A stretch of 14,638 bases of DNA, taken from contig JAEEXJ010000083.1 of the NCBI GenBank assembly GCA_016291475.1, positions 1-14,638 of the forward strand, read 5' to 3'. Positions within the stretch are counted from its first letter, which is position 1, and each line of letters begins with the position of its first letter. This DNA is from Lachnospiraceae bacterium (lineage in GTDB: Bacteria; Bacillota_A; Clostridia; Lachnospirales; Lachnospiraceae). The position numbers and the translations under genes are program-made. The notes below the pieces were generated by a model. That model was not told the DNA's origin. It made no database searches and saw only the letters and a program-made list of their open reading frames with translations. This document shows, in pieces, positions 3,624 through 9,316 of the stretch.

Positions 3624-3652
3624 TTGCATTAAGATTATGCATAACATATAAT
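3624..3652 (+). promoter_or_regulatory. Strong promoter of the leader-ORF / yezD / metK operon
   Basis: TTGCAT (3624-3629), a 17-base spacer and a perfect TATAAT (3647-3652). The start point would be near 3659, giving a leader RNA of about 280 bases before yezD. It is the only good promoter I see between the GH13 gene and metK. A small hairpin, CTTGAT/ATCAAG (3661-3666 / 3673-3678), lies at the very 5' end of the RNA. The stretch 3572-3623 upstream holds nothing I recognise. Confidence 0.65.
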
Positions 3653-3706
3653 TCGACTAACTTGATAAATTGATCAAGCAAAGTGTATGGGAAAGGAAAT
3701 GTGATC

Positions 3707-3838
3707 GTGAGAACAGCTTATGTAAAAGCCGATATGATGAATGAAGCCTGTATGATGTGTTGTCAGGTTGTTATTTGTTGTACCATTATCCAGCTCTGTT
3801 CCAAAAAGAACAGTCTGTATGCCGGGCTAAAAAGCTGA
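3707..3838 (+). CDS. Cys/Met-rich 43-residue peptide, candidate attenuation leader peptide
   Basis: An open frame starting at GTG 3707 (AAAGGA at 3692-3697, 9-base spacing; an in-frame GTG at 3701 is possible but sits too close to the site) and ending with TGA 3836-3838. It begins MRTAYVKADMMNEACMMCC and contains 6 Cys and 4 internal Met codons, five of the Cys and all the Met within codons 10-25 from this start, followed by a basic tail. It lies between a strong promoter and an intrinsic terminator (3861-3909), ahead of yezD and metK. Sulfur amino-acid codons before a terminator are what a leader peptide for ribosome-mediated attenuation looks like. The middle is hydrophobic (VVICCTIIQLC), so a functional small membrane or metal-binding peptide is an alternative. 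I do not recognise a named family. Confidence 0.55.
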   Translation: MRTAYVKADMMNEACMMCCQVVICCTIIQLCSKKNSLYAGLKS

Positions 3839-3839
3839 A

Positions 3840-3871
3840 CTTAAGTTGATTGATAAGATCAAAGACTTGGG
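3840..3871 (+). promoter_or_regulatory. Candidate antiterminator hairpin of attenuator 1
   Basis: CTTAAG (3840-3845) can pair with CTTGGG (3866-3871, two G-U pairs) and TTGAT (3846-3850) with ATCAA (3858-3862), with a 3-base bulge at 3863-3865. This uses the left arm of the terminator at 3861-3873, so the two structures exclude each other. It starts 2 nt after the leader-ORF stop codon, where a terminating ribosome would cover it. Predicted by eye, with no energy calculation. Confidence 0.35.
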
Positions 3872-3909
3872 ACGTAAGCTTAAAGGCCGATTGTCCCAAG
3901 TCTTTTTTT
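3861..3909 (+). terminator. Intrinsic terminator 1 (attenuator) between leader ORF and yezD
   Basis: GACTTGGGAC (3864-3873) pairs perfectly with GTCCCAAGTC (3893-3902), extended by three A-T pairs (3861-3863 with 3903-3905). The loop is 19 bases and seven T residues run from 3903 to 3909. The yezD ribosome binding site begins only 24 bases later with no evident promoter between, so the terminator should be conditional. Confidence 0.85.
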
Positions 3910-3944
3910 ATCCTTCGATGATCCGTGATGCGAAAGGAGTAGGG

Positions 3945-4088
3945 ATGGCGGAACCAAAAGAAGTTACTGAAGAAAGACTTGCACAGATCAAAGAATACAT
4001 TGAATCCGTCAAATACGGATCGGTAAACATCATAATTCAGGATGGGAAGATCATCCAGATCGATAAGAACGAAAAGATAAGACTTTAA
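3945..4088 (+). CDS. yezD: YezD-family (DUF2292) mini-protein
   Basis: A 47-residue protein starting at ATG 3945, preceded by an excellent AAAGGAG (3933-3939). The frame can be extended upstream to TTG 3846, but that would run through the terminator and has no ribosome binding site. The sequence has an N-terminal helix (EERLAQIKEYIESVKYG) followed by SVNIIIQDGKIIQIDKNEKIRL-like strands; the pattern YGSVNIIIQDGKIIQID...EKIR is what I know from YezD/DUF2292 proteins. The biochemical function of the family is unknown to me; from memory its members often lie near sulfate or sulfur-assimilation genes, which fits the metK and SsuA-type transporter genes that follow. No signal peptide and no cysteines. 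It sits between two terminators, so its translation may itself affect read-through into metK. Confidence 0.78.
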   Translation: MAEPKEVTEERLAQIKEYIESVKYGSVNIIIQDGKIIQIDKNEKIRL

Positions 4089-4113
4089 GAACTGACCGGT
4101 AAACCGGAGGTTC
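4089..4113 (+). promoter_or_regulatory. Candidate antiterminator hairpin of attenuator 2
   Basis: GAAC (4089-4092) can pair with GTTC (4110-4113) and CCGG (4096-4099) with CCGG (4104-4107) around a TAAA loop, with a small internal loop between the two stems. It uses bases 4107-4113 of the left arm of terminator 2 and so competes with it. It starts immediately after the yezD stop codon. It is weaker than the terminator hairpin, so it would need to be favoured by timing or a factor. Confidence 0.3.
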
Positions 4114-4158
4114 AGGGTCACGGTTCCATTAGCCGTGATCTTGAACCTCATTTTTTTT
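4107..4158 (+). terminator. Intrinsic terminator 2 (attenuator) directly before metK
   Basis: A 17-bp stem pairs 4107-4123 with 4133-4149 (two G-U pairs) around a 9-base loop, and eight T residues follow at 4151-4158. The metK ribosome binding site AAAGGAG begins at 4169, so no promoter fits between. It must either be read through or be regulated for metK to be expressed. Confidence 0.88.
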
Positions 4159-4181: not shown

Positions 4182-5363
4182 ATGGGAAAATTATTTACTT
4201 CGGAATCGGTAACGGAAGGACATCCCGATAAAATAGCAGACCAGATTTCCGACGCAATACTCGATGCGCTGATCGAACAGGATCCATATTCGAGAGTTGC
4301 TGCAGAGACAACGGTCGCTACGGGACTTGCACTTGTAGTCGGAGAGATTACCACAAAGGCGTATGTGGATATCGCAAAGATAGCCAAGGAGACCATAAGA
4401 GACATCGGATACGTTAACAACGTTGACGGATACAATGCGGATTCCATCGCAGTACTTACTTCCATTGATGAGCAGTCTGCTGATATCGCACTGGGTGTTG
4501 ATAAAGCATTCGAATCAAAACAGGACGGAGCAACAGAAGACTTCGGAACAGGCGCGGGAGATCAGGGAATAATCTTCGGATATGCTACCAATGAGACTCC
4601 GGAATACCTTCCTCCCGCGATCTCTTTTGCACACAGGCTTACAAGGCAGCTTACAAAAGTCAGAAAGGACGGCACGCTCCCTTATCTGAGACCCGACGGA
4701 AAATCACAGGTAACAGTTGAATTTGCCGAAGACGGTCAGACTGTAAAAAGAGTACATACTATCGTTATATCAACACAGCACTCTGAAGAAGTAACTCTTG
4801 AACAGATCAGAAAAGACGTAATTGAAAAAGTCATCAAGCCTGTGATCCCCGCAGAACTTCTGGATGATGACACAATTTATTATGTCAATCCTACAGGAAG
4901 ATTTGTTATAGGCGGACCTCAGGGTGATGCGGGACTGACAGGAAGAAAGATCATAGTAGATACCTATGGTGGTACGGGGCGTCACGGAGGCGGTGCATTT
5001 TCCGGAAAAGACCCCACGAAAGTAGACCGTTCAGCCGCATATGCCGCAAGATGGGTTGCCAAGAATCTTGTAGCAGCAGGTGCGGCAGACAGAGCCGAGG
5101 TTGAGCTCGCATATGCGATCGGTGTGGCAAAGCCCGTATCCATCGCAGTTGAGACCTTCGGAACAGGTAAGGTATCCGATGAGAAGATCGTTGAGATCAT
5201 CGAGACAGTATTTGACTTAAGACCTGCAGCGATAATCGATGCACTTAATCTCAGAAGACCTATCTACAAGCAGACTGCAGCATACGGACATTTCGGAAGA
5301 ACAGATATCGATCTTCCCTGGGAGCATCTGGATAAGGTCGATGAGATCAAGAAATTACTTTAA
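4182..5363 (+). CDS. metK: S-adenosylmethionine synthetase (methionine adenosyltransferase)
   Basis: MetK joins methionine and ATP to give S-adenosylmethionine, phosphate and pyrophosphate in the cytoplasm. The 393-residue length is normal for the family. Diagnostic segments are present: [14 protein letters not shown] near the N-terminus, the [12 protein letters not shown] motif, the glycine-rich [18 protein letters not shown] loop and the C-terminal YGHFGR. The ATG has AAAGGAG 6 bases upstream. The gene is preceded at once by terminator 2 and followed after 25 bases by the ABC-transporter lipoprotein gene with no terminator between, so SAM synthesis is probably co-transcribed with the importer and the SAM-using radical enzyme downstream. 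Nothing is missing or truncated. Expression probably depends on read-through from the promoter at 3624. Confidence 0.98.
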
Positions 5364-5388: not shown

Positions 5389-6495
5389 ATGAAAAAAATA
5401 TCTGTCAGTAAAATCAGCAGAGTTTTTATAACTCTTGCAGCTCTTGCCACACTTATATTCACGACCGCATGCGGATCGTCATCAGCATCCGATTCCGGAT
5501 CGTCTTCCGTAACATCAACCACACTCACCGCATCCGCACAGGAACCTGCTGACGGAAGCGCAGGAGTTCCTTTTACCGGAATCGAAGTGACTTCAAGAGA
5601 TATTACGGTAACGATTGCAGAACAGGGATATTACATTGTCCCCGTCATACTTGATCAGGGATGGTTTGATGAAGTATTTGCGCCGTACGGGATCAATATA
5701 GAGATCGCAAGATTTAATAACGGTCCCGAGATGCTTGAGGCATATACTGCAGGAGTAATTGATTTTGCACAGCTTGGTCTTCAGCCTGCGGTATCCGGTG
5801 CGGCAAACGGAGTGGATATAAGAACAATATCTCTGATCGATGATGCGGAGAAAAATATCTTACTTGTAACAAAAGCGGATTCGGACATTCAGACCGTTGA
5901 GGATCTCAGAGGAAAGAAGGTTGCGGTAACGATCGGATCAAACGGACACAGCTTCCTGATCAAGAGACTTGAAGAAGCAGGACTCACCGTAGATGACATT
6001 GAACTAATCAATATAGATTTCAACACAGCAGCTACCGTTCTTGAAGCCGGTGAGGTTGATGTATCTGTAGGATATAAGACCATTTTTGATAATGCTACCA
6101 AGGATAACGGAACCGAATTCCGTATTGTATCCGATTCCACAGGACTGGGAATTGCAAAGAGCATCCTGACTGTTAAGAACGAATTCTCCGAAGAGCATCC
6201 GGATATAGTGCTTAACATTGTGGCACTTTTCGGTAAGGCAATAGATTTCATCGTAGAAAATCCTGAGGAAACCGTTCGAATCGCGTCAGATTATTACGGA
6301 ACCGATCCCGATATCATCAGAAATGCACTTCCCGTTCAGAATTACAACAACCACGGAAATAATGAAATTGCAGACGACCTGGAAGGTTATATCGACTTCA
6401 TGTATGATAACGGGCTTATCACCGTTCAGGTCGATGTCGAAGATATCTACGATGATTCCTATGTTAAGGAAGTCGGCCTATACGAGGAAAAATAA
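5389..6495 (+). CDS. ABC transporter substrate-binding lipoprotein, SsuA/TauA/NMT1-like
   Basis: A 368-residue secreted lipoprotein. Residues 1-27 form a lipoprotein signal peptide (basic start, hydrophobic stretch, lipobox TTAC with Cys28), followed by a Ser-rich linker and the binding domain. Features of the SsuA/TauA/NMT1 group are visible: an early strand with the EQGYY ligand segment, FNNGPEMLEAYTAGVIDFA (the usual 'G-leu-Ala-G-xx-D' pattern) followed by LQPAVSGAANG, and EDLRGKKVAV at the domain crossover. Family members bind aliphatic sulfonates, taurine, nitrate or thiamine pyrimidine precursors. Given metK, the YezD homologue and the Cys/Met leader upstream, an organosulfur ligand is the best inference, but a thiamine-precursor ligand cannot be excluded. 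The ribosome binding site is GAGGAGAG; the stop overlaps the permease start (TAATG). Confidence 0.9.
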   Translation: MKKISVSKISRVFITLAALATLIFTTACGSSSASDSGSSSVTSTTLTASAQEPADGSAGVPFTGIEVTSRDITVTIAEQGYYIVPVILDQGWFDEVFAPYGINIEIARFNNGPEMLEAYTAGVIDFAQLGLQPAVSGAANGVDIRTISLIDDAEKNILLVTKADSDIQTVEDLRGKKVAVTIGSNGHSFLIKRLEEAGLTVDDIELINIDFNTAATVLEAGEVDVSVGYKTIFDNATKDNGTEFRIVSDSTGLGIAKSILTVKNEFSEEHPDIVLNIVALFGKAIDFIVENPEETVRIASDYYGTDPDIIRNALPVQNYNNHGNNEIADDLEGYIDFMYDNGLITVQVDVEDIYDDSYVKEVGLYEEK

Positions 6496-7265
6496 TGTTT
6501 AACAATAATACCGGAAAAAATAAAATACTGGATCTGTTAACATTTTCTTTCTTCCCGGTTGCCCTGATACTTTTGTGGTTTCTTGCCACAAAGTTCGGAT
6601 GGGTTAAGGCATCGATAATTCCCGCACCGAAGACCGTTAAAGAATCGCTGGTTTATCTGTTGGATAAGAATATCTTTATCGAGGATGCTGTAAGCAGTTT
6701 ATCCAGGATCTTAAAAGGATTCGTCATCGGAGCAAGTGTGGGGATCATACTCGGAATTCTCGTGGGTATGCTTCACGTAGTTGATAACCTTACCAAAGTC
6801 TTTATAGCATTATTCAGACCGGTTCCCATCATAGCACTCATACCGCTTTTCATATTGTGGATGGGAATCGGCGAAGAATCCAAGGTGATGGTCATAGCTC
6901 TGGGTACATTCTGGGCTCTTCTCATTAATACCATCGATGGCATCAAGGGCGTGGATAAGAAACTTGTGGAACTCGGTATCAATCTCGGAAAGAGCAAAGG
7001 GGAGATCGTAAGATCCATCATCTTCCCGGCGGCATTTCCTTCCATATACACGGGACTAAGGATCGGAATCACATCATCCATCGGCTTTGTTATCACCGCG
7101 GAAATGATCGCAGCATCCGCAGGTGTCGGCTACAGGATAATGTACGCGAGAAATATGGCAATGCCGGGAATCCTGTTTGTGGGGATCATAGAGATCGGAC
7201 TGTTCGGACTGGTGGTTGATCTCCTTGTTCTGAAACTTCAGAAATATTTATTCAGGTACAGGTGA
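6495..7265 (+). CDS. ABC transporter permease, SsuC/TauC-like
   Basis: A 256-residue inner-membrane permease of the binding-protein-dependent family. It begins at the A of TAATG shared with the lipoprotein stop. There are about six hydrophobic helices: residues 14-32, 70-100, 103-125, 130-150, 190-212 and 228-246. The cytoplasmic EAA-type loop (ELGINLGKSKGEIVRSIIFP then AAFPSIYTGLRIG) that docks on the ATPase is clear. The PAPKTVKESL segment after the first helix and the overall spacing are typical of SsuC/TauC/ThiX permeases. It should form the channel as a dimer with the ATPase encoded next, whose coding region is essentially contiguous. The substrate is not readable from the permease alone. 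Confidence 0.92.
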   Translation: MFNNNTGKNKILDLLTFSFFPVALILLWFLATKFGWVKASIIPAPKTVKESLVYLLDKNIFIEDAVSSLSRILKGFVIGASVGIILGILVGMLHVVDNLTKVFIALFRPVPIIALIPLFILWMGIGEESKVMVIALGTFWALLINTIDGIKGVDKKLVELGINLGKSKGEIVRSIIFPAAFPSIYTGLRIGITSSIGFVITAEMIAASAGVGYRIMYARNMAMPGILFVGIIEIGLFGLVVDLLVLKLQKYLFRYR

Positions 7266-7270
7266 CGCTT

Positions 7271-8044
7271 ATGGGAACAATAGTACAGATAAAAAATGTG
7301 GATAAAAAATTCACCATAAACGGCGAAACCAAAGAGATCCTTAATGAGATAAATTTCGATGTGCAGGAAGGAGAATTTGTATCGATAGTAGGCTCCTCCG
7401 GATGCGGCAAAAGTACGCTTCTTAAGATGATCGCCGGACTGGAAACCATAACCGAGGGAGAAATACTGATAAATGGCGAAGCGGTAAACGGACCTGCAAC
7501 CGAATGCAAGATGGCATTTCAGGAAGCCAGACTGCTTCCCTGGAGAAATGTATATAAGAATATCGGATTCGGGCTTGATAAAAGTGTTCCAAAGTCCGAA
7601 AGAGATGAGCTGATCAAAAAATACATCAACATGGTCGGACTTAACGGATTTGAAAATGCACTCCCCAAGCAGCTCTCGGGAGGAATGCAGCAGAGAGTAA
7701 GTATTGCAAGAGCTCTCATATCCGATCCAAATATACTGCTTCTTGATGAGCCCTTCGGTGCACTTGATGCACTTACAAGGATCAATATGCAACGCGAGAT
7801 ACTTAAGATCTGGAAACAGGAAAACAAGACGATGATCCTGGTCACACATGATATCGAAGAAGCGGTCTATCTGAGCAATAAAGTTGTAATACTATCCGAG
7901 AGGCCCGGACGGATCAAGAAGATATTAAACATAGATCTTGCTTATCCCAAGATAAGAGGTTCTAAAGATTTCGCATATTATACCAAAGAGATTTACAAAG
8001 AATTCTTTGAAGAGAGCGAGCACGAGATCGATTACGCGATTTAA
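7271..8044 (+). CDS. ABC transporter ATPase, SsuB/TauB-like
   Basis: The 257-residue ATPase of the importer. I chose ATG 7271 because AGGTGA (7260-7265) is well placed for it; an in-frame GTG at 7262 overlapping the permease stop would add three residues. All nucleotide-binding motifs are intact: Walker A GSSGCGKST (41-49), Q-loop QEARLLPW, which is characteristic of the nitrate/sulfonate/taurine group, signature LSGGMQQR, Walker B ILLLDEPFGALD, and the switch His in LVTHDIEEA. The D-loop GALD then TR is also typical of this group. It energises uptake together with the preceding permease and lipoprotein. The next gene follows after 15 bases with its own GGAGG site, so the operon continues. 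Confidence 0.93.
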   Translation: MGTIVQIKNVDKKFTINGETKEILNEINFDVQEGEFVSIVGSSGCGKSTLLKMIAGLETITEGEILINGEAVNGPATECKMAFQEARLLPWRNVYKNIGFGLDKSVPKSERDELIKKYINMVGLNGFENALPKQLSGGMQQRVSIARALISDPNILLLDEPFGALDALTRINMQREILKIWKQENKTMILVTHDIEEAVYLSNKVVILSERPGRIKKILNIDLAYPKIRGSKDFAYYTKEIYKEFFEESEHEIDYAI

Positions 8045-8059
8045 TAAACGGAGGTTGAA

Positions 8060-9316
8060 ATGGAAACCAAAATACAGAACTGGAGGGAAAAGGAACTTTC
8101 CATAGAGGAAGTATTTGCAAAGTATCCTGAGATCCCTAAGATCGTTATTTTAAAGACGGATGTTCACAGGAGAGGATACATCTTAAGTGAGAAGGCACAG
8201 GTGCTTTTTAACAAGGGAGATTATCAGAGCCAGGCAGATACGATCTTTGGTAAGAAGGAAGGAGAAAACAAGATCCCTATCGGACTTGTTTTCAGAGACG
8301 GAACTTCTCTTGTGGGAGGATACTATACCAATTATGGGATCAGAGATCCTTATGTGATCGATGATATAGACGGAAAATTTGTCCTGACCGATAACGGTAA
8401 GGTATATGAGGAGGTAGAGTTCTGGCGTGAACCGGATTTCTATAAAAAGAAAACAAGCAAGGGCACTCCAATGGGCGAGGTTGTCAATGTAAGACCCCAG
8501 AGACTCAATGTCGCCATCAGCCGTGTATGCCATTTCTGGGATAAACCCGGTGAGGGATGCAAGTACTGCAACGTAGGAATAAACGGAATCGATTCTGTTA
8601 AGAAGGGTATCCCCGATCTTTTCGATTACGATGAAGTTGCGGAAGCAGTAGCCGAAGCTGTTAAGCAAAAGGGACGCTTCGCAATGATCATGGTCACTAC
8701 CGGATCTATCCTTACGGGAGAGAAGGTATTTGACGATGAGGTTGATGAGATCATCAAGGCTTTTGAGAAGATCAAACCTATCTTCAAGACCAATGATCTT
8801 AAAGTACAGCTCATTGCATCTGCATATGATAAAGAACAGCTGAAGAGACTCAAGGAAGCAACCGGTATCATCGGATACACTTCGGACATCGAGGTTATGA
8901 ATAAGGAGCTGTTTGAGTGGATCTGCCCCGGAAAAGCGGCACACATCGGATATGATGAGTGGAAAAAGAGGATTTTCGATGCGGTTGAAATATTCGGAGA
9001 GGGAAATGTTAACTCCGGAATCGTCGGCGGCGTTGAACTGGCACAGCCTAACGGTTTTAAGACTGAGGAAGAAGCGCTGGAGAAGTATCTTGCGGAGGCT
9101 GAAGATTTTGCAAAGCATGGTGTATCCATCGCATACATAGTATGGGGCGTCTGCGGAATATTCCATAATCAGGTCGTTCCTTCGCTGGATTATTATATCG
9201 CTCTTGCCAAGGGACTTAACGAGATAAATGTAAAATATAACCTTAAATCCTATTTCGATGATTACAGAAGATGCGGCAATCATCCCAATACGGATATCGG
9301 AAGAATATATTGGTAA
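8060..9316 (+). CDS. Radical SAM enzyme with CX9CX2C cluster motif, function unknown
   Basis: A 418-residue protein starting at ATG 8060 behind CGGAGG. Residues 1-145 form an N-terminal region I do not recognise. The cluster motif follows the strand RLNVAISRVC: Cys157, Cys167 and Cys170, i.e. CX9CX2C in place of the common CX3CX2C (Elp3-type enzymes have the same spacing). Next comes a TIM-barrel pattern: FAMIMVTTGS in the position of the SAM-binding GGE segment, VQLIASAY, GYTSDIEV, then GEGNVNSGIVGGVE. Three further cysteines (289 in WICPGK, 365 in WGVCGIF, 405 in RRCGNHP) sit in conserved-looking surroundings. There is no SPASM or B12 domain. It probably reductively cleaves SAM to a 5'-deoxyadenosyl radical acting on the compound imported by the preceding ABC system. 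An oxygen-free C-S or related cleavage is a hypothesis only. Confidence 0.85.
   Translation: METKIQNWREKELSIEEVFAKYPEIPKIVILKTDVHRRGYILSEKAQVLFNKGDYQSQADTIFGKKEGENKIPIGLVFRDGTSLVGGYYTNYGIRDPYVIDDIDGKFVLTDNGKVYEEVEFWREPDFYKKKTSKGTPMGEVVNVRPQRLNVAISRVCHFWDKPGEGCKYCNVGINGIDSVKKGIPDLFDYDEVAEAVAEAVKQKGRFAMIMVTTGSILTGEKVFDDEVDEIIKAFEKIKPIFKTNDLKVQLIASAYDKEQLKRLKEATGIIGYTSDIEVMNKELFEWICPGKAAHIGYDEWKKRIFDAVEIFGEGNVNSGIVGGVELAQPNGFKTEEEALEKYLAEAEDFAKHGVSIAYIVWGVCGIFHNQVVPSLDYYIALAKGLNEINVKYNLKSYFDDYRRCGNHPNTDIGRIYW

Follow-up and report, generated by a model that had tools for sequence, protein, structure and literature searches.

What controls metK in a Firmicute genus whose genomes give no match to a SAM riboswitch? 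The S-box (SAM-I) riboswitch controls metK-type genes by premature termination, and an earlier note on this DNA had remarked that Firmicute metK genes are usually discussed with SAM riboswitches, so that a peptide-based switch before metK would be notable. The contrast held: the SAM-I model RF00162 had no match in the window (the whole stretch of 14,638 nucleotides analysed here, from a gut-type bacterium) and was found in 0 of 29 genomes of the genus, in a search where 90 of the 96–249 first-look candidates were scored per genome and three control genomes were positive. The terms genus, which is Pseudobutyrivibrio, and family denote the taxa assigned to the genome (G001) of the Pseudobutyrivibrio MAG contig L056, which carried the metK nearest to that of the window among the matches listed (92% at the protein level; 80 loci).

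The forward strand of the window contains, in this order, the leader, yezD/oscA, metK, ssuACB and a radical SAM gene. The yezD/oscA-like small protein (DUF2292; 3945–4088) matched PF10055 above the cut-off (6.7e-19), and its match to the OscA model NF033785 (9.9e-7) was below that model's cut-off. The S-adenosylmethionine synthetase gene metK (4182–5363; TIGR01034, 585 bits), the SsuA-type sulfonate-binding protein (5389–6495; TIGR01728) and the variant radical SAM protein (8060–9316; NF045502) were all matched above cut-off. The SsuC-like permease (6495–7265) had PRK11365 as its top model, below its cut-off, and the SsuB/TauB/SaoA-like ATPase (7262–8044) scored under the cut-off of every model listed for it. 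The radical SAM protein adjoins SsuACB. Of seven genus regions compared, five have distant relatives of it (25–30% identity) downstream of metK, and four of those five also have SsuABC-like genes. A search of a plasmid collection returned no match.

Upstream of yezD, the earlier note had described an ORF of 43–45 codons with six Cys and four internal Met codons, followed by a perfect terminator and by a hairpin competing with that terminator, and all three were present. The ORF is open from GTG 3701 (45 codons) or GTG 3707 (43 codons) to the TGA stop at 3836–3838. GTG 3707, giving an ORF of 3707–3838, is the more likely start from the alignment of relatives and the spacing to a Shine-Dalgarno-like GGAAAGG at 3690–3696, for which the type-A relatives described below have GAAAGGA at a like spacing. 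The six Cys codons (3749, 3758, 3761, 3776, 3779 and 3797) are all TGT and the four internal Met codons are ATG. Of 3000 dinucleotide shuffles of 3652–3863, 26 contained an ORF with six or more Cys and a length of 30 codons or more, and a Cys-rich leader ORF is thus unlikely to be present by chance; beyond these odds, the ORF was taken as real because it is conserved in relatives. The intrinsic terminator (3861–3909) has its stem at 3861–3905 and a U-tract to 3909 (−23.1 kcal/mol), and the fold of 3836–3915 was better than that of all 200 shuffles (0/200 as good; z −5.3). A simple terminator scanner did not list 3861–3909, probably since its loop is above the limit of the scanner. The competing hairpin, a candidate antiterminator at 3840–3871 (−8.1 kcal/mol), occupies the left arm of the terminator.

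Judged from its sequence, the region 3624–3909 is very probably a ribosome-mediated transcription attenuator that senses Cys-tRNA, and possibly Met as well. In the proposed mechanism, a ribosome that has translated the Cys-rich ORF as far as its stop (3836–3838) would cover the RNA able to sequester the left arm of the terminator, and the terminator 3861–3909 would form. When Cys-tRNA is scarce, the ribosome would wait on the Cys codons, to which scarcity of Met-tRNA may add, and the RNA downstream of the stalled ribosome (the late ORF and/or 3840–3850) would pair with the left arm. With this arm sequestered, the polymerase would continue into yezD-metK-ssuACB-rSAM. We infer translation of the leader, stalling, the direction of the response and the pairing partner in the window.

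The conservation of the leader was followed in the genus. Of the 29 genus genomes, 20 have a DUF2292 gene, and metK follows it in 19 of these 20 loci, the remaining one (L082) being a short piece. A Cys/Met-rich ORF of 31–45 codons and then a terminator were found upstream of yezD in 13 of the 20 loci, the terminator being present in 13/13 leader-bearing loci, and the other 7 had no leader. Together with the window these gave 14 leaders for comparison, which are not independent and include near-identical groups. Each has 5–9 Cys in 31–45 codons and 3–5 internal Met codons. The window, L084, L085, L086, L092 and L094 have type A leaders, L082, L083 and L087–L091 have type B leaders with a C-M-C-M-C or CCC cluster, and L098 has a shorter leader. 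In ungapped comparisons with the window as reference, where "other" residues are neither Cys nor Met, Cys was retained at 6/6 positions and other residues at 8/32 in each of L084, L085 and L086 (Fisher p 0.0011 each), at 6/6 and 4/32 in L092 (p 7.6e-5), and at 5/6 and 4/28 in L094 (p 0.0024). Cys was retained despite a nucleotide identity of 51–59% over 25 codons. Among pairs of relatives, 3 of 10 gave p < 0.05 (L092 with L084, L085 and L086) and the rest were not significant, several being too alike. The invariant columns of the five aligned type-A leaders were M1, C15, C18, C19, Q20, C24, C25, T26 and C31.

The earlier note had proposed a Cys or Met sensor and had suggested looking in relatives for an ORF that keeps its Cys and Met codons while the rest drifts. 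The ORF was found in 13 of 20 genus loci, and the Cys part of the proposal stood, with 6/6 codons kept in four relatives and the rest drifting; the Met part was weaker in the window, where only 1 of 4 Met codons was retained against each of L084, L085, L086, L092 and L094. Met codons could nevertheless be a second input, considering the 3–5 internal Met codons in 14/14 leaders and the MetN/MetI-like genes found under one leader (below).

The peptide itself might instead be functional, as a Cys/Met-rich metal- or thiol-binding peptide or an arrest peptide, with a constitutive terminator behind it. The type-B invariants R2, M12, M14, L18, Y19, Q21, A25, M29, A30 and L33–P35 (5 sequences) fit such a peptide, as does the recurrence of CCMCMC[RK]ML[YF]S-type peptides in predicted proteins. 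The window peptide alone as a query returned zero leader homologues, and two leader alignments as queries matched 2 and 5 proteins (E ≤ 1). Two of these matches were weak (0.046 and 0.13), and another, P0003, shares 98% identity with one of the leaders that made up the query alignment. Against a functional peptide, the lengths and C-terminal parts of the leaders diverge (31–45 codons within the genus against 28 for L122), type A retains mainly Cys, and the leader-terminator unit also stands before MetN/MetI-like genes; moreover, the late-ORF RNA of type B pairs with the terminator arm, which may explain the conservation at the peptide level. We therefore regard the functional peptide as unlikely.

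The region could instead be a non-translational 5' UTR switch, such as a metabolite riboswitch, a T-box or a protein-bound antiterminator, across which an ORF is open by chance. This would agree with the folding of the leader region, which beats shuffles (z −3.7), and with a palindrome, TCGTA(T/A)ATACGA, which in 7 of the 14 leaders, the window not among them, lies after the ORF or overlaps its end. The retention of Cys at 51–59% nucleotide identity speaks against it; the window gave no Rfam family at gathering score, and among 12 loci of relatives the tRNA model alone reached gathering. Such a switch is very unlikely in our estimate. The palindrome was mapped at or after the leader stop in L083–L086 and L089–L091 and also in L323, and L099 and L100 have it without any leader, as though the leader had been deleted.

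For the attenuator, pairing of the terminator arm was then calculated with a ribosome footprint represented by masking 12 nt past the A-site codon; the earlier note had suggested folding the leader with and without the end of the ORF blocked. When the ribosome was placed on the first Cys cluster, the 5' arm of the terminator paired upstream with a mean P of 0.29–0.85 in 14/14 leaders, and with the ribosome at the stop this was 0–0.25, or the arm itself was covered (L082, L087 and L088). In the window, arm pairing had a P of 0.66–0.68 with the ribosome on a Cys codon versus 0.03 at the stop. In the seven type-B leaders, a stall at late Cys codons gave less sequestration of the arm. The direction was therefore as expected in all 14 leaders and in L323, while the antiterminator of the window itself was only marginally better than chance (14/150 and 49/500 shuffles in the two tests). 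When the intervening RNA was dinucleotide-shuffled, the pairing probability was reached by 1–14 of 150 shuffles for 9 of the 14 leaders, the window having 14, and by 27 for L086, 45 for L094, 79 for L091, 87 for L092 and 114 for L085. The best duplex was reached by 15–33 of 500 shuffles for L082, L083, L087, L088, L089 and L098, by 49 each for the window and L092, and by 101 for L086, 118 for L084, 134 for L090, 155 for L091, 194 for L094 and 410 for L085; for L323 and for L122, where the ORF and the terminator arm are almost perfectly complementary, it was reached by 0/500. The test was decisive in these two alone, and several of the 14 leaders did no better than shuffled RNA. The best duplex partner of the terminator arm in the window was the late ORF and not 3840–3850.

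L323 and L122 came from searches beyond the yezD loci of the genus. The C-M-C-M-C pattern matched in 6 of 29 genus genomes, four of these matches being known leaders. The match in L322 was not a leader. In L323 (1350–3015), a type-B Cys/Met leader with its terminator immediately precedes MetN/MetI-like ABC importer genes, for which the MetN and MetI models were the best matches, below their cut-offs, in a genome without a DUF2292 match. Its arm pairing had a P of 0.98 with the ribosome stalled on Cys versus 0.01 at the stop, with a duplex of −25.0 kcal/mol. In a wider-family sample of 28 yezD loci of other Lachnospiraceae (L101–L128), L122, which lies outside the genus, has on its reverse strand (~1090–1300) a 28-codon leader with MCCCRMLFS, a terminator and then yezD; here the ORF just past the Cys cluster forms a 10-bp duplex with the terminator arm. 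No leader was recognised in the other 27 by eye or by motif search. The yezD gene of this sample was often 3' of a cysK-like sequence (by eye), and metK gave no match in L101–L128. The occurrence of leaders before MetN/MetI-like genes in L323 and before yezD in L122 shows that leaders accompany sulfur genes and extend past the genus. At the equivalent position, L323 and L083 have different sequences, each of which pairs with the terminator arm of its own locus. The strongest indication of a real antiterminator is that both partners differ among L122, L323 and L083 yet stay complementary.

Counted against the attenuator are the shuffle results of several leaders, the near-identical groups among the leaders, the single Met codon of four retained, the seven leaderless yezD loci, the mostly non-significant comparisons among relatives and a second terminator-like hairpin standing before metK. 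This hairpin (4107–4149, in the yezD/metK gap) was missing from the earlier note and is conserved in relatives. At the foot of this strong hairpin is CTGACCGGTAAACCGGAGGTT, and the motif and hairpin together span 4092–4150 of the window. A pattern made from the copies seen, CTGACYRG-N3-5-CYRGAGGTT, was searched in 326 sequences (1.46 Mb, biased towards yezD loci), and 29 distinct copies lay no more than 400 nt past yezD, against 2 in other positions (L118 and L266), with 0 copies of the reversed pattern as control. The motif also precedes the tRNA-like element described below in several loci, including L266. Its small CYRG/CYRG hairpin shows compensating changes by eye (CTAG, CCGG, CTGG/CCAG) and overlaps the left arm of the terminator-like hairpin. 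Because this varying hairpin overlaps the left arm, the two together may constitute a second attenuator before metK.

The leader promoter (3624–3652) consists of TTGCAT (3624–3629), a 17-nt spacer and TATAAT (3647–3652). It had been called strong in the earlier note, which is right for the perfect −10 box and overstated for the −35 box (3/6), and a promoter scan of the window did not list it. The type-A relatives L084, L085, L086, L092 and L094 have TTGACT or TTGACG plus TATAAT at this position. The absence of a second promoter claimed earlier agreed with the scan, which listed zero promoter-like sites from 3909 to metK, and we infer that metK and the importer share the leader promoter past the second hairpin. 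A palindrome, CTTGATAAATTGATCAAG, lies directly 3' of the −10 box at 3661–3678 and is a possible operator. The operon might be governed at initiation only, by a CymR/Rrf2-type repressor, with the leader and terminator incidental: CCTA..TAGG-type repeats, which may resemble CymR boxes, were seen by eye at promoters of loci with and without a leader. Repression alone would leave the conserved Cys codons, the terminator and the pairing unexplained, and both layers can coexist; we consider it extremely improbable as the sole control.

A tRNA-like element of 70–71 nt stands between the terminator of the leader and yezD in 12 of the 13 genus loci that have a leader (L082–L092 and L094); it was found in 0 of the 7 leaderless yezD loci and has no copy in the window. 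There is no room for a promoter before the element where the terminator U-tract abuts its first base, as it does in 9 of 12 loci. A pattern derived from the genus copies gave one match each in 12 of 29 genus genomes. The tRNA model RF00005 scored 35.7–45.2 bits (gathering 29) in the seven loci that bear the element among the 12 searched, and ARAGORN, given 17 loci of which 12 bear it, called a tRNA (Cys, GCA) in L091 only. Across 9 distinct copies, 99.4% of the cells at paired positions were complementary and the covariation score was reached by 0/500 shuffles; five pairs changed on both sides (reached by 1/500), and the count of further pair types was reached by 49/500. The 24-copy alignment, which was made with a covariance model and is hence biased towards it (L188 was added by eye), again gave a covariation score reached by 0/500 shuffles, with 185/500 for two-sided pair changes and 136/500 for further types. 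The metK tree was poorly resolved, and the leader and the element each change at least four times on it; the ancestry of either is not claimed from this tree.

The true tRNA-Cys of the genus, GGTGCCATAGCC...GGCACCT, is like the element at the 5' end, and its apical GCA is kept. Among the tRNAs of G003 (57 compared, 2 loci skipped), the nearest to the element was, by a narrow margin, tRNA-Cys at 15.0 versus tRNA-Gln at 14.5, and tRNA-Cys fits 11 of the first 12 nt of the element, the next best (tRNA-Gln) fitting 9. Pseudobutyrivibrio copies have A73 and a 4-nt GGCA anticodon loop (5-nt CGCAA in L091), not one of 7 nt; in most copies from elsewhere a 7-nt loop with GCA is possible. The U73 discriminator is important for CysRS, and the genus tRNA-Cys genes examined end in T. 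N73 of the element was A in 19, G in 5 and U in 0 of the 24 aligned copies, the apical GCA being present in 23; U73 was found in none of the further copies L231, L261 and L265, and L231 and L261 are without GCA. The collapsed anticodon loop argues against decoding by the Pseudobutyrivibrio element. A mimic directed at CysRS or a T-box, a punctuation mark in the mRNA for RNase P/Z, and a special tRNA are possible roles. Tentatively, the leader of most leader-bearing relatives might gate, besides yezD-metK, a dedicated, non-translating tRNA-Cys mimic that is transcribed upon read-through and signals like uncharged tRNA, its partner being CysRS, a Cys T-box or a processing enzyme; we hold this reading to be possible rather than probable. 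If true, the mimic would represent a new class of sulfur-starvation RNA.

The element was not confined to the genus. A covariance model found it in 15 of 397 family genomes, including one genus genome, with scores of 74.6 bits or more (next best 46.7), and a second model in 2 of 391 class genomes and 8 of 392 order genomes (at least 77.5 bits; next best 59.1). The sets overlap, and the class and order searches used stricter filters. These counts may be low because the low scorers L188 (45.6 bits) and L266 (59.1 bits) look like diverged copies. The contexts of 14 loci outside the genus (L172–L185) were read with models for some, including L184 and L185, and by reading-frame likeness for the others. 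In 10 of the 14 (L172–L175, L177, L178, L180–L182 and L184) the element stands before a nifB-like gene and behind cysK-yezD or cysK. Elsewhere it precedes metK (L179), a cysK-like gene (L183) or an amidohydrolase (L185), or follows cysK (L176). In L184 the nifB and nifH matches were below cut-off, the latter coming from a piece of 69 residues; a small ORF that separates these two genes gave no match at 1e-20. The element of L266 stands before an apparent amino-acid ABC transporter (by eye), and that of L265 has an ABC/HD-type neighbourhood with no obvious sulfur tie. The cysK(-yezD)-element-nifB-like clusters in Lachnospiraceae recall nitrogenase-like sulfur-assimilation systems. PMC11423573 reports that sulfonate assimilation involves a nitrogenase-like enzyme, which has a radical SAM protein as its partner, and this system parallels the nifB/H-like genes adjoining the element.

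Among the literature matches listed, which included few subscription papers, the tRNA-like element was unreported. It is like the tRNA-Other of B. cereus in being a tRNA-like RNA outside translation; according to PMC3399842, tRNA-Other is a pseudo-tRNA with a Trp anticodon beside a genomic island, for which a T-box role was tested. The element differs in being Cys-like, in lying in sulfur operons and in having, in most copies from Pseudobutyrivibrio, an anticodon loop of only GGCA. Its place beside the switch in relatives makes tRNA mimicry in the control of sulfur metabolism an idea that can be tested.

For the leader, the same literature matches (few subscription papers) contained no Cys leader before metK or yezD. 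With no SAM riboswitch matched in the genus (0/29), the leader would hold the place often occupied by an S-box. One sensor would have replaced another at metK, a gene central to metabolism, and a peptide would serve as the sulfur switch for both metK and the import of organosulfur compounds in this Firmicute genus. Attenuation at Cys codons is already known from mycobacteria and from Rhodobacterales cysS; the gene set and the clade appear new. Leader-peptide attenuators in Firmicutes are represented by the His leader peptides of hisS/hisZ in bacilli, which use His codons, and the available part of PMC2965389 names no Cys leader. The polycysteine leaderless ORFs of mycobacteria form a cysteine-responsive attenuator (Canestrari 2020, cited in PMC13236596), which PMC13236596 describes as translation attenuation, whereas the window has a Shine-Dalgarno-led ORF and then an intrinsic terminator. 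The uORFC-8-2 motif of Rhodobacterales cysS (PMC8632094) comprises a short ORF in which Cys codons stand in tandem, together with two stems and a U run, and ribosome-mediated transcription attenuation by Cys-tRNA was proposed for it. That motif, as given there, belongs to Alphaproteobacteria and cysS and has two Cys codons, whereas the present leaders belong to Lachnospiraceae, precede yezD-metK-importer or MetN/MetI-like genes and, in the genus, carry 5–9 Cys together with Met.
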